This document shows positions 3,488 through 30,577 of a stretch of DNA of 64,000 bases, one piece after another. The notes below the pieces were generated by a model that was not told where the DNA came from, searched no databases, and was given only the letters and a program-made list of their open reading frames with translations. Position 1 is the stretch's first letter. Every line of letters begins with the position of its first letter. Where the stretch lies: NCBI GenBank assembly GCA_028698305.1, contig JAQVDN010000001.1, forward strand, positions 310,001 through 374,000. Direction: 5' to 3'. Both the position numbers and the translations under genes were made by a program. This stretch comes from Candidatus Altimarinota bacterium. GTDB lineage: Bacteria; Patescibacteriota; Gracilibacteria; BD1-5; UBA6164.

Positions 3488-6400
3488 ATGTTTAAAAAGA
3501 TATTTATTATATTTACAACTTTTTTTATACTAAGTCTTAATTCAGACTTGGTTTATTCTGCTGAAACAAGTGAACAAAATTATACTACTTTATGAGTTGT
3601 TGATTTTAAAACTTTTAATGAGTATAGATATAAGATTACAGATCAATACCTTGATTTGAGAAATAAATTTGAGGTTGAATGAAAGATTGATCAATATATT
3701 TCTGCTAGAATTTTAATGTATGCAAAAGAAGGTATGAATTATTTACCAGATAGTTTATCAAATAAAAATTATTATAATTATTTGAAAACATCTGTTGAAA
3801 AAGGGATTAAATATCCTGAAAATTCTTCATTTTTTGAAGAGATAGCAACTTCAATAGAAAATTTTTTAGAAAAAACTACTATTCAAAAGGTAACTGGTAA
3901 TGTTGAAGCATTTCCATCATCTTGAAATGCTCCATTAACAGTAACATTAAGATGAAATGTAAAAGATCCAACTTGAACAAAACTTGAAAATTATAATTTT
4001 ACTTGGTGGATAAATGAAAAAGGTAAGAGAAAAATTATTGGAAATAAGATTTCTTTGACATATGTATTTAAAGAAGAATGAAATTATTCTGTTTTTTTAG
4101 ATGTAACTTCAAATCATAAAAATTCACTATGATATAATGATGTATTGCCTTTTTCTTCTAGAGCAGATATTGTTGTAAAAGAAAAAATAGCTTCCTTAAT
4201 TTTAAAAGTTAATAATGAAAGTTTAGGACAACAAGAAGAATTAAAATTTTTACCAGATATTGCTAGATATTGATTACTTTTTGATGCTACAAGTTCTACA
4301 CCAACTTCATGAGCTAAATTTACAAAAACAGAATGGGATTTTTGAAATTGAGTTATAAGAGTAAATGATGGAGCTCCTTATACAGAAAGAGTTGTTTATT
4401 GAAAAGAATGAGAATTTACTGTTAAATTAAAACTTACTACAAATGAGAATAAAACAGTTGAAAGAAAATTTATTATAAAAATACATAATCCAATAGCTAC
4501 AATTAGGTCAACAAGTGAAGAATGATATCTATGAGATAAATTTACTTTTACTGCAAATCCAACATGAAGCAATAATAACCTGAGTTATTCTTGGAAAATT
4601 ATAGATATAAAAAATGATAAGGAAATATTAAATAAGAATTCATCTACATTTACATATAGTTTTCCTGAAAAATGAAAATATAATGTTCAATTATATGTAA
4701 CTGATGCATCTTGAGATGTAGATTTAGATTATAAGATTATACATATAAATTCAAGAGCACCAGAAGCAAAATTTACCTATAATATATCTTTTCCAAATAA
4801 ACCAAATACTGTTTTTTTAGATGCTAGTTCTTCTTTTGATGCAGATTTTAGTGATGATTGAAAATTAAAATTTTCTTGGATTATAAATGGGGAAAGAGTA
4901 AATCTTGATAACTCTAATTTTAATTGATCAAATTGATATTATACTTTTTCTTCTGTTGGAGATCAATCTGTTGCTTTGGAAGTAACTGATCCAGACGACA
5001 TTACATCAACAAAAACAGATAAAATTAAAATTAATTCTATATTATCTGTTGAATTCTTTGCTTTTCCTAGAGTTGTACAAAGAGAAAAAACTATAAGATT
5101 TGTTGCAGATTCAGTAGAAGCCAATTTTTATGAGTGGGATTTTGGAGATGGAATTAAAGAAGGTTGAAAAGATGATAATATATCTCATATATATAAAAAA
5201 GCTTGAGTTTATAATGTTAGATTAAAAGTTATTGATAAGGATGACAATTCAAATAATTTTTCAAAAAATGTTTACATTTGAGATACAGATAGTCCATATT
5301 CATATATAAATATACAAGATAGTAAATTGAATGAAGTGTCTTATGAAGATTGAGTTTGTAATTGAGAAGGTGCATATATTTTAAATAGGGTAGATACATT
5401 TTCATTCTCATGAGATGAGAGTATTGATGTAACATGAGATAATAGTTGATTGACTTATTCATGGAAAGTATGAAATTCTCTTTATAATACACAAAATTTT
5501 ACTAGAAAATTTGATGAATTAGGTTGTAGTAAAGTTAAATTAACTGTTAAAAGTAATAAAAATTGAAAGGAGTCATCAAAAGAAGTAAATGTAAAAGTTG
5601 AAAATATAAAACCTACTATATCGAGTTTGGATGTCAGAGTAAAAGATAGCGAATCAGATCCAGTTTTGGTTACATTAACAGCAATTTGAGCAAAAGATTT
5701 AGATTGAGTTATACAATCATATTTATGGTATTATTATACAGATATTGATCCTGAACCTCAAGATTTTAGAGCTACAAAAAATGAAACAACAACTTTTGTT
5801 TTACCAAAAGTAACTTGAAATTATTATTTTGTAGTAGTAATGAAAGATAATAATGAAGCAAGAGCAAATTCAGAAGAAATAAATGGTTCAAAATATTTTA
5901 TAACATTGACAGGTGATAATGTAAATACACCAATTGTTGATTTAAATGTAAATAATAATTCTGTTTCTATTTGAGATGAAATATTTTTTACTGCAAATGT
6001 TCAAAATATTTTATGACAAAATCTAAATACAAAAGTTTCATTTTCTTGGGATTTTGATGGTGATTGATTTTATGATAAAGAAACTACAACTAATACTACA
6101 AGTCATAAATATGAAAGTTCATGAGAAAAATTTGCAAAAGTAAAAGTTAAATATAAATGATTTTCAAATACAAAAACTGTTACCATAAATGTTGCAAATA
6201 TTTTAAAACCAGATTTTGATTATGTATCTATATGAAATGATTATATATTTTTTGATAATAGTTTAGGTAATGCTAAGGATTATTTATGGGATATGTGAGA
6301 TGGAAATAAGATAACAAAATCTTCTTTTACATACACATATAATGATTGAAAATCAACTCATTTAGTTACATTAAAAATTTCTGAATGAAATAAAACTAGA

Positions 6401-8446
6401 GAAATAACAAAAAAAGTTGTTAAAAATTTATCAAATTTTATTAAAGCAAAAAAATCATGATTAATAGTATTTTCAAATCATGAGATTGATGAAAATGATT
6501 CTATAATTATTGAGGATAAAACAAAGAAATTATATTTTTATTTAGGAGCAAATAGTTGAGATATATATAATTATGTTGCTGACTTTGATATAAATATAGA
6601 TTCTGATTTAAATTGATGAAATGATGATGATGAAGATAATAAATTTCAAGATAGTTATTTATCTAAAAACTCAATATTAGTTGATTTAAATGATTCAAAA
6701 GAACAAATTGTTAGACTTTATACTAAAGATATTAGTTGAAAAATATTGTCTTCTAAAGATATAAAGGTTGTAAAAAATTATATAGAAGAAAATATAGATG
6801 TAAATTCTATAATTTTTGAGGGAGTTTCTGATTCTATAAAGTTTAAATTAGAAAAAATAAAATTAGAAGTTTCTAATTTTCCAAAAGAGCATAAATTAAA
6901 ATGATTAATGTATGTTCAAAGATTGAAAGAAGAATGGAATGATGATAGAGAGAAAACAAATATAATAATAGAATTTGAATCATTTATTGATCAAATTGAA
7001 ATCGCAAAAGGTAAAGAGTTAATTGATTTACTTGAATCATTATTAATAGAATGAGAAAATGATAAATCAGAAAAAACAATAGCTTTTAATGCTCTTAAAA
7101 ATCTTATTCCTACAAATATTGCTTGTATTGAAAAAACAGCAACTGAATTGAAAGATTGATTAACTTGTTATGATTTGCTTGTTTTAAAATTGGAAGTAAT
7201 TTGAGAAAATTCAAATATAGATGAAAATAGAGAATTATGAAAAATTATTCTTGAAAATATTGCAGCAAATGAAGAAATGACAGTAAAACAAAAAACTGAT
7301 TTTAAAGCAATATTAAATACATTTGTATATTGAAGTGTTGCAAATATACCAACAGAAGAAAAGGAAGATATAATAAGTGAAGATACTGTAAAACAAGGAT
7401 CAAATTGAATTATAAATATTTTATCATTTATCATAAAGATATTTTGAATAATAATACTAATATTTTCTTGAATAATAATCTTATTTTTTATTTATTATAA
7501 ATTAGTAAATAAAGATAAAAATATTTGATTTTCAGATTTTATTGCAAATAGGACTTTTCAAAGAAATCAAAATGTAATAAATACCCAAGAAGAAGATGTA
7601 CTTTCTTTTGAAAAAGAAGATATATTTAAAAAAGAAGAAGATGATCTTAATTTTTATCAAGATAATATTTCTAATATTGATAAACCTTTATTAAAAGATG
7701 AAGATCCAGTTACAGAAGTAATAAAAGAAGAAAAAAATATTGAAAATAAAGTAGAAAAAAAGGTGGAAGAAAAACAAGAAGATAATAATGAAGATAAGAA
7801 AAGTGAGATACCAGATTGGTTAAAATGAAGTTTTAGTGAAGATCCAGTTACAGAAGTAATAAAAGAAGAAAATAATATTGAAAATAAGATAGAGAACAAG
7901 GTAGAAGAAAAACAAGAAGATAATAATGAAGATAAGAAAAGTGAGATACCAGATTGGTTAAAATGAAGTTTTAGTGAAGATCCAGTTACAGAAGTAGTAA
8001 AGGAAGAAAAAAATACTGAAAATAAGGTAGAGGAACAAGAAACTGATATACCAAAGCTAGAAACTAAAGAAGAATTGGATGAATTTACTAAGATTGATTT
8101 AGAAGATGATACTTCAAAATTTAATAAAGACAATTTACCAGATTGGTTAAAATGAAGTTTTGAGGATGATACTGATTTATCAAAAAAGGATCCTATAAAA
8201 GAAGATAAGAAAGAAGATTTTATTGATACACTTATTCAAAATAATAATAGTGAAGAAGTTGAAAATGATTTTGAAAAAGACAATGTTAAAATAAAAAAGA
8301 AATCTCCTAGTAAAAAAATATCTTCAAATAAAAAAGATAATAAAAATTTAGTTAATGATGAAACTAATTTAAATACATGAGATAGTGAATTATGGGATGA
8401 TTGAATGAAAGTTCCAGATTGGCTTAAAACAGACGATGATAAATAA
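3488..8446 (+). CDS. giant PKD-domain surface protein with cytosolic PDWLK repeat tail
   Basis: 1,652 residues. A signal peptide (about residues 1-24) is followed by some 1,250 residues of beta-sandwich repeats. PKD-type signatures are visible, for example YEWDFGDG near nt 5130 and SWDFDGDG near nt 6045. An alpha-helical stretch precedes one transmembrane segment at about residues 1309-1338 (IIILIFSGIIILFFIYY). The remaining 310 residues are an acidic Lys/Glu-rich tail, predicted cytosolic, with near-identical 46-residue repeats and four copies of PDWLK. Large PKD proteins usually serve adhesion or extracellular scaffolding; in an episymbiotic lineage host attachment is an attractive but unproven role. 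The downstream gene encodes signal peptidase I. Confidence 0.85.
7703..8040 (+). repeat. 138-bp in-frame tandem repeat (46 residues)
   Basis: Units begin at 7703 and 7841 with a partial third at 7979, exactly 138 bp apart and almost identical. Each unit encodes a DPVTEV(I/V)KEE start, an acidic spacer and SEIPDWLKGSFSE. Further PDWLK copies occur at about 8138 and 8414 outside the tandem array. Confidence 0.95.
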
Positions 8447-10570: not shown

Positions 10571-11059
10571 ATGAATTGGTATGAAAAAGAAATAAAGAAG
10601 TATTCTGTTGATATGAATACTAAAATATATGCTTGAATAATTATAGCATTGTCTTTTTCTGTTTATTTTTATTTTACTAGATGAATTTATCAATGGGAGA
10701 GTATTGAAATAATACCATTTGTTCCTTGGATATGATGATTAATAAGTGCTTTAACTTATCTTACAATTTGAAAATTGTTTTATAAATCAAAAGTAATTTA
10801 TATGCCTTTATATTTTATTTTTGTGGTTTTATTAAATGATAAGAGAACTTATAAAAAGATAAAAAAAGTAATATGGTTAATATTGTGATTGTTAATGTAT
10901 TTTTTCTTTTTACCAATAGCTGTATCATTCTTAAATTTTATTATATCAATCTTTTATAATGCAGCACTCTTTTTATTGTATATCGCACCAGTATTCTTTA
11001 TTTCATGAGTTTCAATATTAGGATTAATTTATATAAAAAATAAAAATAAAATATGATAG
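10571..11059 (+). CDS. four-helix membrane protein next to the TPR-PIN gene
   Basis: 162 residues, strongly hydrophobic. About four transmembrane helices can be seen: IYAGIIIALSFSVYFYF, FVPWIGGLISALTYLTI, IWLILGLLMYFFFLPIA and LLYIAPVFFISGVSILG. No family recognised. Its last 7 bp overlap the start of the 1,236-residue TPR/PIN-like gene, which implies translational coupling and a shared role. A membrane effector or anchor of that system is a reasonable guess, not a demonstrated function. Confidence 0.8.
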
Positions 11060-14000
11060 ATAATAAAAAATGGCTTAAATTTGAGTTAAATTCAGAAATT
11101 GCTTCTACAGAACAATTTGAAATATGATTTTGTAGAGAATTTTTTTCTATTGAACAATGATTAAATATTGATGATGTAACTATTATTGATGGTTTAAAAT
11201 GAATTGAAAATATACCAGTAAATTGAGTAGCTTTTCAATCAAAGTATTTTAAAGATGATTGGAAATGGAGTAAAATAAAAGAATCTCTTGATAAGATATT
11301 AAAAGCTAAGCAAAAATGAGAGAAACCTTTTGATGAATTAAATAAAATATATGTTTATGTTAAAAGAATAAAATGAAGTACTTATCTTAATGATTCAATT
11401 ATTGATGATTTAAAAAACATAGGAGTTGAGGTTGTAATATATGAAAAATGGGAGAAAATAGATTTAGAGTATAAGTATGAGAAACTAAGATGATATTTTA
11501 CAGTCAAACAAGATATTGAATATGAATTAAAATTAATTGAAAAATATATAGATAATTTATATTTAGAACCAGCAGAAGAGCTTTTAAATATAATTGATAG
11601 TAAAATAGAGGACTTATCAGATTTACATAAATATAAATATTATATTTTAAAATGAAAATTAAAGACTCATATAAATTTATTTCAGGAAAAAATAGAAAAA
11701 AAAGATTATTATAAAAATTTCTTAAAGGCATATGAATTTAAGCAAGATAAAAAGGCAAAAATTAATAAAGCAATAGGGTTATATAATTTAGAGAGAAAAG
11801 ATGAAGCATTAGAAATCATTAAGGATATATTAGATAATACTGAATATGATGAATATGCATATTCTGTTTATCTTTCAATTGAATCTGAAAAATATGATAA
11901 TATTGAAGATTTTGAGAAAAATATAGATAAAAAGTATTTAAAAGATGAATATGTTAGAGATGCTATATTTGATGTATATAGATTAAAGTGAGAAATTATA
12001 CTTTGATTTGAAAAGTATTATAAAAAAGAAGATTGTGAGTGAATAGAACAATTAAAGGATAAAATTTTATATTTTATTAATTGGTCAGAATATTTACAGA
12101 AAAAATATTGAATTTATAATTTATCAATAGTCGCAAAAAATGAATTTATTAAGTTAGAAAATTTTTTAGATAGTTTTAGATTTGATATAGAATGAAAAAA
12201 GTTAGTAGTAGAAGCTGATATTTTTAATATAAAAGGTATAATTAATTCTCAAATTTTTAATAATTTTAAAACTTCTAGTCAATATTTTGCTAGAGCTTAT
12301 GAAAGAAGAGAATCTTCTGTTATAAAATTAAATGAGGCATTTTCTCTAATAAATGAAAATACAATTGAATCTAAAAATGAAGCTATTGATATTTTAGATG
12401 TAATAGTTAAAAATTTTGATGAAATTTTAAAAAAAGAAAAAGATAATCCAAACAAAAATGTTTTATTTCAAGCTCATATAAAGTTAGCTGATTTATCTTA
12501 TGATAAATGACAAATACCTAAGTGAAAAGCAATATTAAAAATATTTGAAGATAAATATTTACAGCAAGTTAAGAAATTTTATAAAAGACAATTTTATTCA
12601 GTTAAGTTTAAATTTATAGATATCAATTCTAAACAACACTATATATCTGAATTATTATCTAGTGACAATTGTATTGTATATAATTTATTATGATATATAG
12701 CATTTAATAATGATGTTAAATATTTAGAAGAATGATATAAAATATATAAAAGTAATCATAAAGAACATTTTAATGATATAATTCAGTTAGCAGAATTTTA
12801 TTTAAAAAAATGAGAAAAAATAAGATTTTTTGAAATAGTAGATAATGAGCTTAAAGATTTGTCAGATATTTTTCTATTTCAAAATTATATAATTATTTGA
12901 ATTGAGTTATGAGAGATTGAAAAAGTTGAGAAAAAATTAGAAGACTATATAAATCATAATGATTGAAAAGACGATTTTATTTCTATTAGATTTAAATCAT
13001 ATTTAGAAGAGAAAAGGTGAGAGTATAAAAAAGCTATTTCAATAATTACTGATTTTTTAGATGAAGAGTATAATATTGATTTAGCAATTAGAAAAGCATA
13101 TTTGGAGTTAGATTTATGAGACAACGTAAGTTTTGAAAAGACAATAAAAGAATTAATAAATTTATATAATGATTTAGATTTTCATAATAAAATTTGAGTT
13201 ATTGATTTATATAAGCTTATTGATAGAAAAGAAACAATACAGTATCTTTATGATTTATTACAAAATGATGTTGAAGATGAAAAATATGAATTACAATTAA
13301 AACAACTATATATACGATTGCTTATTCCATTAAAAAAAGAGGTTTTTGAGATAGAGAATATTGATGAAAATAGCTATATTATAATTGAGGAACAAATTAG
13401 TAAGAATAAAAAAACTTTATTATTAGATTGATATTCTAATAATAAAAATGTAGATTTAGTTAAATCTAAAGATACTAATCAATATAATTTATTAATATGA
13501 CATAAAAAGTGAGATATAGTAAAAGATTTATTTCCAACTACTACAGGAATAGTTAAAGAATATAAAATATTAGAAATAAAAAGTAAGTATATACATTTAT
13601 TGCAAGAATTTTATAAAAATCCAGAAGAGATTGAAATGGAAAGTATTTATATTCCTAATTGAGATGATTTTACTGAGTTTCAGAAAATGTGAAAAAGAAT
13701 TTGAAAAGAGGAAGAAGATAGAAAAAAGTATATTAATGAAAATTTTTACAATAAATGAACTTTGTCATTTTGAGTTCTAAAACATTTTTATCATAAATCA
13801 TATATTGATTTATATTATGGTATGTTATGAAAAGATTATAATATTATTTCTGACCTTACATTCAAAAGTGATAAATATAGAGAAGTTGAAAATATTGTGG
13901 TTGATATCAGTTCTATATTAACAATATTTGAATTATGATTACAAGATATTTTAACTAATAATTTTAAAGTATATATACCACAATCAACTCTTACATATTT

Positions 14001-14763
14001 TAATAGAGAATTAACAGAACTAAAATTTAATTGGGAGTTGAATGATAATACTACTATTGTTTTTGATTCAGAATGAAGATGAAGTATTATAAATCTTGAT
14101 AATGATTATAAACAAAAGAGAAAAGATTTTTTTGAATCTATTATAAATTGGTTAAAAGAAAAATGTATAATAAAATCATCAAATTTATTAGTTTCAAAAG
14201 ATAAGAATATAAATAAATTTTTATGAATAGAATTTTATGAGTCTCTTTTAATAGCTCAAGATAATAATTATATATTGTTTTCTGATGATTTATTGTCTAG
14301 AAATTTATTTAGAAGTGAGATATATAAAATGGAGGCATTTTGAACTGAGAGTTTTATTTCAATATTACTATCTAAAAAGCTTATTTCAATTGATAATTAT
14401 AATGAACATATTATAAAACTTTGTAAAATGAACTTTTCTAATTTAACAATGAATATATATATGTTTTGATATTTATTTTTAAAAGAAAGGTATGTTGAGG
14501 TAGAAGAGTTAATAAAATATTCTAAAAATAAATGAATAAAGGAAGATTTTATTGTTAATAGTTTAATTCATATAATAACTAGCTTACCATTTTGACTAAA
14601 TATATTATACAAAGTCTTTTGTAATTATTTTGAAATAATTATTAAATATTATGATTATAATGATGTTAAAAAAGAATGTTTAAATATTTTATCTGAATTT
14701 AAGCAAGAAGATAATATGTTAAAATTTGCTAAGTTAGTTGATATATACTTAATAAAACATTAA
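11053..14763 (+). CDS. TPR-GreAB-C-PIN-like multidomain protein, predicted nucleic-acid conflict effector
   Basis: 1,236 residues, frame open throughout. Residues 1-150 resemble a restriction-endonuclease-like fold: an acidic/glycine loop near residue 47 and a QSK motif near residue 63 (GVAFQSKYF), like the (D/E/Q)xK catalytic core. Residues 160-780 are helical repeats of TPR type. Residues about 795-830 (LLIGHKKGDIVKD, then KEYKILEIKS) look like the C-terminal GreA/GreB domain. Residues about 945-1110 fit a PIN-like nuclease, with Asp in VVDISSIL and Asp-Asp in SDDLLSRN. This order matches the TPR-GreAB-C-PIN class predicted by comparative genomics to act against invaders. Domain calls are by eye. 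Confidence 0.75.
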
Positions 14764-24759: not shown

Positions 24760-25662
24760 ATGATTTTTGAAAAAAAGCTAAATGATTTTTTGAATAAAGA
24801 AACAGACAAACAAAAAATAATTGTTATTTACGGACCAACTGCAAGTTGAAAAACTAGTCTTAGTATTGATGTAGCTAGGTATTTAGATACTGAAATAATA
24901 TGAACAGATTCTAGACAGATATTTAAGTATTTAGATATATGAACTTGAAAGATTACAATAGAAGAAATGCAATGAATTAAACATCATATGATAGATATAA
25001 TAACTCCTGATAGTGAATATAGTGTTTGAGAATTTAAAAAAGAAGCTGAAAAATATATAGAAGATATTATTTCTATGTGAAAGATACCAGTTTTATGTGG
25101 TTGAACAGGATTGTATATAGATAGTTTAATATATGATTTTGATATACCAAAAGTACCAGCTGATGAGGATCTTAGAAATAAATTGGAGCTTGAAAGACTT
25201 GAGTTTTGAAATAAATATATTTGGAATAAGTTAAGTGAAATTGATCCAGATTATGCAAAAGAATTACATCCAAATAATTATAGATATATCATAAGAGCTT
25301 TGGAAGTAAAAATTTTGACTTGAAAAAGTAAAACAGAATTTAGAACTGAAAAATCTTTTAAATATGATGTTTTATTTTTAACTCCATATAATTGAAATAG
25401 AGAAGAATTATACAATAAAATAAACAAAAGAATTCAAATAATGTTTGATGATTGACTAGTTTTAGAAACTGAAAATCTACTAAAAAAATATAAAAAAACT
25501 GATTTTTGAATGAAAACTATTTGATATAAAGAAGTAGTGGATTATTTAGAATGAAATATAACTTTGCAAGAATGTATAGAATTGGTACAAAAAAACAATA
25601 GGAATTATGCAAAAAGACAATTAACTTGGTTTAGAAAATATGAAGAAGATTTGGAAATATAG
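24760..25662 (+). CDS. miaA: tRNA dimethylallyltransferase
   Basis: 300 residues. P-loop GPTASGKT at the N-terminus (the glycine before Lys is UGA), then [15 protein letters not shown], the H-H-MIDI motif, [18 protein letters not shown] and the helical C-terminal part [17 protein letters not shown]. It adds the isopentenyl group to A37 of tRNAs reading codons beginning with U. The last 35 bp of the gene are repeated perfectly at 29694-29728, behind the next large gene. Confidence 0.96.
25627..25661 (+). repeat. 35-bp direct repeat, left copy (miaA 3' end)
   Basis: Starts TGGTTTAGAAAATATGAAG within the miaA C-terminal codons and ends one base before the end of the stop codon. Identical over 35 bp to 29694-29728. 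Confidence 0.97.
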
Positions 25663-25721
25663 ATTTTTGTATTTCTTTGATATTTATGATAAAATGAAAA
25701 AGATATTATTTAAATCATATT

Positions 25722-28700
25722 ATGTCTTTTGAAAGAGAAATAAAATTATCTAATCTTCCATCATTCAACTGAGTTTCTGAATATATTAGAAATGCTGTTT
25801 TAGAAACTCTAAAAGAACCTTTAGAACAGCATATTTCTGATACTCAAAAATCTGTTGAATTAATAAATTCACTTTTAGATTATATCACTTTTTTAGAGTG
25901 AATCTTTTTATGAGAATGACAACATTTTACTGCTGAAGATTTAAAAACTCCATGACTGAGTTCACTTTTAATGACTTCAAATAGACATGATGAAGAAGAT
26001 AAAAGAGAGATCTTAGAATTTTTTAGGGAACAATTTAAAGCACTCTATCCAAGAATCTTTACTTGAGAAAGCTTTAATATTGATAATAGTGATAATCCAG
26101 TTAGTTTACTTGTAGATGCTATAAAAACTATAAGAGCAATAAGGGTTTTTAAAAGTTTTTTCTTAGAAGAAGAAATTAAAAAACTTAATATATGTGATGA
26201 ACAAGTAATATCATTTTTTCGAAATAATAGAGCAGTCATAAGTATAAGATGAGATATATTTCCAGAAATTTGTCATACTTTATGAATAGAAAATAATATA
26301 GAAAACTTTATAAAATATTTAAATTCAAAATTACTTTCAGTTTTTACTATTGACCAAGATAAAGATTTTGCTTTAGATTTAATAAAAAAGTGAATTGAAG
26401 CACTTAAAAGAATTAAATGATTTGATTTTGATTGAATTTTTGATGTTGATTTATTTAACTTAAGAAGATTATGGAAATATAATTGTCTTTTAAAGTGTGT
26501 AAAATATTTTAAAATTAAATCAGCAAAAGATTTATCATCAGATGGAATAGAAGAAGTTTTAAGATGCGAAGAATTTAGTGAAAAGATTATTTATTTTGAA
26601 AAATGAAATGATTTAATGTTAAGTGAATATGAATGATGGTTTTGAAGGAAATTCACACTTGAAGAGGCTTGAGACGGAACTTTAAAAAATATTTTTAAGA
26701 TTTATAAATGAATAAAAGAATATGGAATAAAATTAGATACTGTTAAGAATATTTTTGATTATTTAGATAAAGAGAGAGTTTGAGTTTGAAGTTTAAGGGA
26801 TTGACAAATTCGTAATCTTGTAAATTTTTTTATACTTTTTACTTGAATAGAAATAAATAAAGAAAATTTTGAAAAGAAAGTAGAAATTCTAAGAGATATA
26901 ATTTGAATAGACTTAGATTTAGAATGGGTAATAAATACTTATTTAAATAATTTATTGGAAGTATTAATTTGAAAATCAAAAGAAGTAAGTTATTGAAAAG
27001 TTGATACAAAAGAAACTTTATATAAACCATTTTTTGCAAAATTTCCTCAATTTGTATGAGTAAATGAAGATTGAGAAAAATATAGTGAAAATTGGGATAA
27101 AAAGCATTTTAAGGGTGACAAAAATAAATTAAGAGAAATTTTGATACAAACTCAATCAATAGATTTTATTATGTTTTTTGTAGAAGAGTTTTGAAATATA
27201 AATGATGTTTTAACAAATCAAAATTTCCAACTTTTTCAAAATATTTCAAATGAAACTCAGAAGAATATAGTGAATTTTATAAAATTTGTTAGAAAATATA
27301 ATTTATTTGAAATTAAAATTAGTGATGTAAATGAGGAATTTATTAGATTTATAAATAATGCCTTTGCTTCTGATAAAATACCTGAAAATATAAACTTACC
27401 AGATAACTTTTTTGATGAAAATATTTCCTTACAAGATTTTGAAGATCCTTTAGTAAAAAGCTTGATTTTAGAAAAATCAAAAGTATTTGGAAATTTAGAA
27501 ATTTTATGTGCCTTTTATAATCTACCAGTGAAACTTTCTTCTTTTAGAACAATTTTTAATAATTATGTAGAAAAGTATAAGGATACACAGTGATTTTTAA
27601 AGTTTTTTATTCCACATGATTTAAGATATACCACAAGATTTATAATTAGAAGTTTCCCTAAAGATTTAACTATAGAAAATTTAATTTATATTTTAATTTC
27701 ACAATATGATTTTAGATTATATACTTTAATGCACCATGTAGATGAATGAGTATATGAAAAAGAACAATTGTTACAAGAAAGACTTTGACTTGATACAAAT
27801 AGTTATTTTAAAAAGAATGAAGAGTGAAACTATATTTTCAATGAAAATAGAAAAGATTTGCTTAGATTAATTTTTGATGATAAAGTTAATTATGATTTAT
27901 TAGAAACTTTTATAAATACTTTTACATGACTTACACTTTGAAAACTAATTAATTTTTATAAAGCAGATTGATTTAATTCTGAATACGCTAAAGCTTGAGA
28001 TACTTTAATTTTATTAATCCAATATTCATTAGATAAAAATAATTATGCATATTTAGAAAATAATATTGATGTAATTGTAGAAATAAATAAAGGTAATTAT
28101 ATAATAAATAAAAAAGAAAAATTAAAAACTCTTCTTGATAAAACTTGATGATATATTACAGAAAAATTTATGTTAGAATTTGTTATATGAAATTGTAGTG
28201 AAGAACAACTTGATGAAATGATTGCTGATTATGAAAGATTTAGAAATATACTTTTGTCTGGATGAACTTTAAATTGAGTAAATGATAGCCATTGACTTAT
28301 ATGAGTTGTAGTGAAAGATGTTTATCCTGAGAGAAGTTGGTCTCCAAAGTTACATCACAAATATAGCGATGCAACGAATCATTTGAAACCTTATAAATTT
28401 GATAGAAATGGTTATCATATTAATTTGACTTGATGAGTAAGTTATGAATTAGTTTGAAATCTTGATGAAAAAGTTGTTAAAATTTATAGAGAATTATTTG
28501 AAAGATTATCAAAAATAAATTCTTTAGAAGATTTAGAAAGATATTTAGAAGAAAAAGCAAAAGAAAATAATCTAACTCTAGAAACTTCAACTTTAGAAGC
28601 TCGTATTTTAGAGTATTATAAAAAATTAGAATTATCTTGAAAAAAACTTCAAACTCAAGATCTTGATGTAATTTTATTTCACCAAATCTTAACCTCAAAT

Positions 28701-29690
28701 CAAACACTAAATTTATCAAATATTCCATATGATGATATAACAAAAATGATGGAAGAATTTTGAGATAAATTTAAAGAAAGCTTAGCTTCTTTAGTAAAAA
28801 AAGTCTCAAATGATGATACTAAAAAAATAATTCATACTTGAGTTAATACAAATTCAAAGAAATATAAACAAACTTTAGAGTCAATCGGAAGAATTTATAA
28901 TATTTTTTCTAAAGTTCCAAGCGAAGCAAGAAATATTTGAAAATTGAAAAAGTTAGCAGAAAATAATTTAAAAGCATTTTTTGATGAAAAAACATTAAAT
29001 GATATTTTAGATGAAATTGAAGCAAAAATAGATATAAATAATTTAAGAACTTTAGAAGATTTTTCTAAAATTTTACTTGAAATAATTGAATCAAAAAGTA
29101 AAATAGATTTTTGACATATTGCTTTAGAGTGAGCAAAATATTATTCAAAACTTGAAAGCGAACTTAAAAAATTTGAAAAAAAAGTTGAAGAGTGAAGTAA
29201 TTGAAAACAAAGACAATTAGATATGTATTTTATGAAAACTAAAGAAAGTTCAAGAGCTAGATGAGTAGCTGGAAATTGTGCCTGACAATGGGAAAATATG
29301 TGGGAAAATGAAAATTATTTTGAACTTGTGTTATTTGATAGAGATTTAAAACAATGTGTTTGAGTTGTAGAGCTTTTAGTTATGGATGATAAAAAATGAA
29401 GATATTTACTTTATTGACCAACTCCAAGAGAAACTTATTTAGAAAAAGTAGATCCAGAAGAACTTTATAATAAGATTACAGAAGTTGTTATATGATTTGC
29501 CAAAGAAAATTGATTTGATGGAATTTTAACTAATACAACTCACTGAAAAATGTGAAATGCAACTTGAAAATTTGCAGAAGTCTTTCAAAGGTCAGTAAAA
29601 AAAGATAAAAGAATAAATTTAAGTAAAGAATATGTTTTATTTTGAGGATATAAATTTAAAGATAATTTAGAAATAATTTGGGAAAAGTAA
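25722..29690 (+). CDS. 1,322-residue protein of unknown function
   Basis: Frame open through 1,322 codons using UGA for glycine like its neighbours. Mostly helical, charged, without signal peptide or membrane segment, hence cytosolic. The last 160 residues form a separate domain starting near SRARGVAGNCAGQWENMW, with VVELLVMDDKKG, an LYGPTPRETYL turn and FAKENGFDGILTNTTHG. This alternation recalls a GNAT-like acyltransferase fold, but I cannot name a family. A Cys in GNCAGQW is conserved-looking. The gene is bracketed by perfect 35-bp repeats of the miaA end, which suggests insertion or duplication beside miaA. Confidence 0.8.
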
Positions 29691-29693
29691 ATC

Positions 29694-29728
29694 TGGTTTA
29701 GAAAATATGAAGAAGATTTGGAAATATA
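29694..29728 (+). repeat. 35-bp direct repeat, right copy
   Basis: Begins 3 bp after the stop of the large gene and reproduces the miaA 3' end exactly. It is followed directly by the terminator that would otherwise serve miaA. Confidence 0.97.
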
Positions 29729-29730
29729 AA

Positions 29731-29773
29731 AAAAAGACTTAAAATATAAATAATATTATTTTAAGTCTTTTTT
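29731..29773 (+). terminator. terminator after the large gene
   Basis: AAAAAGACTTAAAATA / TATTATTTTAAGTCTTTTTTT long hairpin with T-run. The next ATG starts 2 bp later. Confidence 0.9.
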
Positions 29774-29774
29774 T

Positions 29775-29891
29775 ATGGAAAATAATGAAAAAAAACCACT
29801 TTTTACAAAAAGTAGGATATTGTTTTTAATATGTGTTTTTATTGTTTTTATGATGCCACTTTATTATAGATTACTTGAAAAATTTTTATAA
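29775..29891 (+). CDS. 38-residue single-pass membrane peptide
   Basis: Short ORF MENNEKKPLF plus one transmembrane helix (ILFLICVFIVFMMPLYY). The stop overlaps the next start (TAATG), so translation with the SanA-like gene is coupled, which supports it being real. Function unknown; similar tiny helices often assist a neighbouring membrane protein. Confidence 0.7.
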   Translation: MENNEKKPLFTKSRILFLICVFIVFMMPLYYRLLEKFL

Positions 29892-30577
29892 TGAAAAAAT
29901 ATGTTATCTCATTTTTTGTTTTAATATTTTTGATACTTAGTTTTGTAACTGGGGTTAATTATTATGTTCTTAGTTTTTCTAATGATAATTATTTTTATGA
30001 TGTAGATTGATTAGATGATAAATATTTATGACTTGTTTTTTGAGCTTCCATTATAAATAATAAGTATCCTTCTGATATATTAAAAGATAGATTAAAAGTT
30101 GCTTATGAAGCTTACAATACTTGAAAAATCAAGAAAATAATTGTTTCATGAGATAATTCGAAGATAAATTATAATGAACCAGAAGTTATGAAAAATTACC
30201 TTGTTTCACTTTGAGTTAAAGAACAAGATATTTATCAAGATTATGCAGGTTTTGATACTTATGATTCTCTTTACAGAGCTCGTGAAATATTTGATGCTAC
30301 TGAAATAGTATTATTTACTCAAGATTTTCATCTAAAAAGAGCGATGTATATTTGAAACAAACTTTGACTTCAAGTTTATTGAGTCGAGACAAATCTACAA
30401 AAATATATAAAAGAGGATTATAATAATAGGAGAGAAGTATTTGCCCGTATAAAAGCATTTTTTGAAATAGAAATATTTAAAAATAAACCAAAATATCTTT
30501 GAGATAAGGTTCGTATAATTAGTGATGAACAAATTGAAGATACAAAGAAAAAATTATTAGAAGATAAAAGCGAGTAA
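29891..30577 (+). CDS. SanA/YdcF-like DUF218 membrane protein
   Basis: 228 residues. N-terminal membrane anchor (VISFFVLIFLILSFVTG), then the DUF218 core: LGLVFGASIINNKYPSDILKDRL, split here as GASIINN and DRLKVAYEAYNTGK, followed by IVSGDN, EPEVMKNYL, D-Y-A-GFDTYDSLYRAREIF and TQDFHLKRAMYIGNKLG. The order (VxGA, VSGG-like, T-x-F-H-x-x-R) is characteristic of SanA/YdcF proteins, linked in E. coli to envelope integrity. The domain lies outside the cytosol. Its TAA stop is inside its own terminator. Confidence 0.88.

Follow-up and report, generated by a model that had tools for sequence, protein, structure and literature searches.

In a Gracilibacterium genome, a real and derived insertion lies at the 3' end of miaA, where a unit of 4,067 bp with a single giant gene has entered with exact borders and the last 35 bp of miaA now stand on both sides of it; sister species preserve the empty ancestral state, and the same arrangement recurs at other genes with other cargo. 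We conclude that this is probably a single-gene insertion with long target duplication (ILTD), a process described in Helicobacter pylori and often linked to restriction-modification genes (PMC1643837, PMC3031569, PMC3154945), while the reading of the repeat as an attachment site is not supported.

The stretch of DNA analysed here (the window) comprises 64,000 nt of contig JAQVDN010000001.1 (GCA_028698305.1, positions 310,001 to 374,000 of the forward strand), and its reading frames close up under code 25, in which TGA encodes glycine. The genome to which it belongs (G000) is a 1.29-Mb draft in 18 contigs, with the locus inside a contig of 379 kb. Five congeneric genomes (G022, G023, G024, G025 and G026) were used for comparison, among which G023, 'Candidatus Gracilibacteria bacterium STC_119', represents the sole other species with a related gene behind miaA. 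In the species tree, G000 pairs with G024 (support 75) and G023 groups with G025, G022 and G026. Elsewhere in the window, tandem repeats of up to 93 bp (7699-8161) lie within a 1,652-aa PKD-domain gene (3488-8446), a candidate hypervariable surface protein, and a 1,236-aa protein (11053-14763) contains a PIN-TPR-GreABC domain (Pfam E=8e-20). Additionally, G000 carries a CRISPR array (C13:56149-58200) with the repeat ATCTACAAAAGTAGAAATTTATTGGTGGCTTTAAAT, which we take to resemble a Cas12a-type repeat.

The locus and its 35-bp repeat

The features of the locus, in window coordinates, are as follows.

24760-25662, + strand: miaA (tRNA dimethylallyltransferase), the target gene whose 3' end is duplicated (TIGR00174, E=1.5e-86; code-25 ORF)
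25627-25661, + strand: left copy of the 35-bp target duplication, the functional miaA end (single in the empty sister sites)
25662-29728 (equivalently 25627-29693), + strand: inserted unit of 4,067 bp with promoter region, one gene and the second miaA-end copy (scarless alignment with four empty sister sites once removed)
25685-25695, + strand: putative extended -10-like promoter element TATGATAAAAT of the inserted gene (read in the sequence; consensus resemblance only)
25722-29690, + strand: inserted gene, 1,322 aa, no known family (ORF open only under code 25)
28269-29687, + strand: C-terminal module of the inserted gene, aa 850-1322 (alignment of 14 sequences; AlphaFold mean pLDDT 39)
29694-29728, + strand: right copy of the 35-bp duplication, non-coding, between the stop of the inserted gene and the original terminator (exact repeat; empty-site alignment)
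29731-29774, + strand: original miaA terminator (hairpin and T run), now 3' of the inserted gene (directly 3' of miaA in G024 and G025)
29891-30577, + strand: sanA (DUF218), the original right neighbour of miaA (adjoins miaA in G022, G024, G025, G026, G035, G021, G040 and G041)

The initial annotation had reported a repeat of the miaA 3' end around the 1,322-residue gene, just before the terminator, and this was borne out as a direct repeat that is exact over 35 bp. It corresponds to the end of miaA and takes in the first two bases of the TAG stop, the following base being G at the left copy and A at the right copy. The right copy begins 3 bp past the stop of the 1,322-aa ORF and stops 2 bp short of the terminator, and the 35-bp sequence has no further occurrence in the G000 genome. 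In ten Markov surrogates of the window, exact direct repeats reached at most 17-21 bp, and three surrogates of the whole 1.29-Mb genome contained no repeat of at least 22 bp within 20 kb (longest 21 bp); a chance origin is excluded by these runs. An assembly artefact of this metagenome-assembled genome, for which the division of the draft into 18 contigs might speak, has a close to negligible probability, given the position of the locus well within a 379-kb contig, the repeat length of 35 bp, which is below normal read length, and the independent assembly of G023, which has a related gene at the same place with a copied end. An element similar to TATGATAAAAT can also be read ahead of genes of relatives. 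A 38-codon ORF, MENNEKKPLFTKSRILFLICVFIVFMMPLYYRLLEKFL (29775-29891), overlaps the start of sanA and is kept in the empty sites of four relatives; it probably encodes a real small membrane protein.

Empty sites in sister species

According to the initial annotation, miaA should run straight into the terminator in relatives lacking the gene, and exactly this was observed in G022, G024, G025 and G026, where the gene is absent, miaA leads directly into the terminator or the next gene, and sanA follows 160-162 bp on. When the window flanks are joined without 25662-29728, they align scarlessly to all four genomes, the sole change being G to A in the former stop codon, and the 35-bp target is present as a single copy in each of these empty sites. 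Moreover, miaA and sanA are adjacent without the gene in other genera (G035, G021, G040 and G041), and since these are outgroups the insertion is derived. The converse, that a larger miaA duplication left the right copy as a remnant, or that the gene was there from the start and has been deleted from the empty sites, draws on the ability of tandem duplication to make direct repeats and on the fact that deletion between repeats would yield the same empty sites; however, nothing of miaA precedes the 35 bp on the right, and the junction of the right border with the terminator is the same as in the empty relatives, which together with the adjacency in the outgroup genera makes it very improbable. 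Independently of the miaA site, G024 contains a 5.8-kb gene block between sanA and a NUDIX-like gene (L040:6352-12344) that is absent from the window, G022, G023 and G025.

A related gene at the same site in G023

In the independently assembled G023, a related gene stands directly behind miaA. Its left copy has kept 18 bp and then runs into a new stop, miaA being four codons shorter there, and its right copy, of which 32 bp remain, departs from the window at one base and continues into the terminator region, with 18 bp still common to both copies. Relatives carrying the gene at the same place without repeats, named at the outset as the finding that would speak against a duplication, are thus not represented by G023, which keeps the 18 shared bp and the 32-bp right copy.

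The inserted genes of G000 and G023 show 55% identity in the N-terminal part and no match in the C-terminal part, the flanking proteins are 79-93% identical, and 32% of the four-fold degenerate sites of the flanking genes differ between the two genomes. Measured against this 32%, one difference in the 32 non-coding bases of the right copy is far fewer than expected (P = 8e-5), which makes common inheritance unlikely, and the last 14 bp of that copy have no left counterpart in G023 from which they could be corrected. The species tree, which places G023 apart from G000, is not in favour of a single inherited insertion either. Considering the divergent C-terminal half and the over-preserved right copy in G023, the miaA site has probably been used twice, and this sequence comparison points to two separate arrivals, one in G000 and one in G023, though constraint may also have acted on the right copy. 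Between its right miaA-end copy and the small ORF before sanA, G023 additionally has about 150 bp of extra sequence (L039:8940-9110).

A different history would be that the unit was made once, by a duplicating insertion in some Gracilibacterium, and then moved between species by homologous recombination after DNA uptake, with the miaA end and the flanks serving as homology and with clean losses between the repeats. Such spread would fit the patchy distribution within the genus, the mosaic ancestry around the locus (miaA closest to G024, sanA closest to G022 and G025), the scarless empty sites, and the reports that Patescibacteria take up DNA and recombine (PMC12455944). Yet the two inserts, 55% identical N-terminally and with unrelated C-terminal halves, are far less alike than their flanks, and at trmB (see below) each genome has its own host variant in both copies, so that we regard this history as quite unlikely.

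A modular orphan gene

For the 1,322-aa protein nothing significant was found in Pfam, NCBIfam, PADLOC, PHROGs or PDB sequences, and viral contigs contained no relative of the gene. It is present in 6 of the 48 genomes of the family, and the protein profile has matches in 18 of the 353 genomes of the class, often only to the C-terminal part of otherwise different proteins; proteins sharing this part reach about 2,000 aa. While the N-terminal part (about aa 1-900) is common to G023, G002 and G032, the C-terminal part is common to G041 and many large proteins of the class, with distant similarity in an alignment of 14 sequences. In the window protein this part is closer to that of G041 than to that of G023, which indicates that modules were exchanged, and the gene is an orphan of a modular, patchily distributed family. 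The AlphaFold models (mean pLDDT 39 for the C-terminal module, 46 for the N-terminal 900 aa) are too weak to use, and we therefore claim no function for the protein. The last 160 residues have a predicted order of strands and helices like that of a GNAT acetyltransferase, with no match in Pfam or PDB sequences and at pLDDT 39; with low confidence, the C-terminal module may be compatible with a GNAT-like fold.

The insert and its neighbours have the same G+C content (22-23%) and the same TGA-for-glycine usage (81-85%), which indicates that code 25 was in use in the donor as well; neither a donor molecule nor a circle was found for the inserted gene. At the loci of its relatives (G002, G032, G041 and ten large proteins with the C-terminal module) there were no flanking repeats above shuffles, hence the gene family as such does not bring the repeat with it.

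The same anatomy at other genes

The entire G000 sequence was screened for isolated direct repeats, with gene families, CRISPR, rRNA flanks and terminators set aside, as was a 35-bp repeat at C16:19293/23511 that was taken for a repeated promoter-like element ahead of two operons. The survey yielded five cases of the anatomy seen at miaA, namely miaA, ymdB, trmB, hsdM and hsdR, with duplications of 22-57 bp, unrelated repeat sequences and a recombinase in none of the inserts. Three of these sites (miaA, ymdB and trmB) were checked against empty relatives, and hsdM and hsdR were assigned from anatomy alone.

At ymdB, an HD-domain gene in reverse orientation sits between copies of about 51 bp of the gene end, the original terminator comes after the right copy, and G022, G024, G025 and G026 are empty. 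At trmB, 23 bp of the gene end are copied around a small repeat-rich gene in G000, whose sequence is partly given as N; G024 has the 23-bp copy with one mismatch, G022 has a shorter match, and G023 and G025 lack the insert. In each genome the two copies agree in showing the variant of the host itself (GAATT in G000 and G024, GAACT in G022). The 3' end of hsdM is copied over 22 bp around a DUF3800 gene, and the 5' end of hsdR, 29 bp exactly and about 57 bp inexactly, around a zeta-toxin-like gene; these two cases share one type I restriction-modification locus (G000 C14:44848-54722, L150). Overall, four of the five sites are gene 3' ends, and at the three checked sites the original terminator was left downstream. 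Insertion with copying of the target end is a recurring mode of gene gain and not a one-off.

These cases also bear on the earlier proposal that a segment had integrated at a gene end while restoring that gene, in the manner of an attachment site. Its first part stands, as the four empty sisters confirm an insertion with the gene end duplicated. The attachment-site or integrase route does not, since the insert contains no recombinase domain, and ymdB, trmB, hsdM and hsdR show the same anatomy around unrelated cargo, with repeats that are unrelated in sequence and differ in length; the remark that no integrase is visible was correct, the neighbours of the insert being miaA and sanA. For site-specific integration, the unit would have to carry a copy of a miaA attachment site, and both its integration and its excision would depend on a tyrosine or serine recombinase from another locus, or else on an activity not yet recognised in the giant protein, whose N-terminal 900 aa have no confident fold (mean pLDDT 46). 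Gene 3' ends commonly serve as attachment sites, miaA is restored by the left copy, and this one site apparently received an insert on two occasions (in G000 and in G023), all of which would suit this explanation, but the relatives of the gene in G002, G032, G041 and ten further members of the class are not flanked by repeats, and we consider it unlikely.

How frequently ends are duplicated was addressed by a systematic comparison of G000 with about 0.8 Mb of G023 for insertion-like differences between collinear orthologues. None of the 80 differences had matching ends beyond paralogues and one palindromic terminator; the three checked sites were invisible to this comparison, two lying outside the compared part of G023 and miaA being occupied in both genomes. 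As duplicated ends were practically absent from the 80 differences, insertions with long target duplication are in the minority, or else they soon lose their traces. G023 has an identical 38-bp palindromic terminator on both sides of a 728-aa gene (C3:127781 and 130054). Furthermore, the beginning of the tag gene is copied over 33 bp so as to bracket a RhuM/Fic gene of G023 (C3:496921-498041), which was rejected as an insertion, relatives having the RhuM-Fic gene without the extra (orphan) copy. This gene is ancestral though bracketed, and therefore repeats alone do not prove a new arrival.

Comparison with known systems

In H. pylori, the link of ILTD to restriction-modification genes is described as 'sometimes' or 'frequently' seen and is not exclusive (PMC1643837, PMC3031569, PMC3154945). 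In the present cases, as there, related genomes differ by the presence of an inserted gene, the direct duplications around it are long and of variable length, the empty genome has the target once, and the host is naturally competent; some of the sites are likewise within a restriction-modification locus (two of five, inside the type I locus). At miaA, the insert is absent from close relatives and its 35-bp repeat is far longer than transposon duplications; across the events, the length varies (22-57 bp) and the targets are unrelated, with hsdM and hsdR counted by their anatomy. In contrast to H. pylori, the miaA cargo is a giant orphan gene and not a restriction-modification system (no PADLOC, Pfam or NCBIfam match), the sites are predominantly gene 3' ends with the original terminator downstream, and the host belongs to a different phylum that reads TGA as glycine.

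Genomic islands and prophages that tyrosine recombinases insert at gene 3' ends similarly restore the gene end by a direct repeat, but here there is no integrase, a single gene is inserted, the repeats elsewhere are unrelated and none surround the relatives of the gene. A transposon target-site duplication also leaves the target directly duplicated on both sides of the insert, but is of short, fixed length, whereas the duplications described here vary between 22 and 57 bp; a domain search found no transposase in the insert, and no terminal inverted repeats were recognised by eye. Transposed genes in Arabidopsis come close in that non-transposon genes have flanking direct repeats matching the empty orthologous site, yet they are from a plant, and the route proposed there is via circles excised from tandem repeats (PMC2869330). 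Our literature search found no report of ILTD in Patescibacteria.

Proposed mechanism and significance

Under the reading that we favour, single-gene insertion with long target duplication, about 4 kb of DNA with a promoter and one giant gene, from a related code-25 bacterium, would have entered miaA at its 3' end. The final 35 bp of the target gene would thereby have come to lie on both sides, miaA would have stayed almost unchanged, and the new gene would have taken over the miaA terminator. The variable lengths, the unrelated repeats, the unrelated cargo and the lack of a recombinase argue against a transposase or integrase, and the duplication may have been made during integration by recombination or repair, e.g., by strand exchange or template switching in which the chromosome is left and then re-entered 20-50 bp upstream. 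A plausible route would be the joining of taken-up DNA at a break or fork, after which synthesis would restart 20-50 bp upstream and so duplicate the target; genes for DNA uptake and recombination are reported in Patescibacteria (PMC12455944, PMC6851277). The survivors would be those events that leave genes intact, which may account for gene ends being the sites seen. Within the genus, the miaA site was probably used more than once, and the short direct repeats would permit clean loss of the gene.

As a tentative and still rather doubtful generalisation, Gracilibacteria might gain genes in a recurring way: units of one gene would go into the final codons of housekeeping genes, a duplication of 20-50 bp would preserve the host gene, and its terminator would mostly be borrowed. 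Different cargo would use the same sites again and loss through the repeats would leave no scar, gene ends thereby acting as integrase-free docking sites.

In conclusion, Patescibacteria are reported to gain genes horizontally, and the undamaged entry of single genes into streamlined genomes is rarely visible. Here such insertions are caught with exact borders, with empty relatives and at a site that was probably re-used, and a patchy, modular family of giant proteins is revealed alongside. The mechanism of insertion with long target duplication, known mainly from Helicobacter pylori, thus becomes testable in another phylum.
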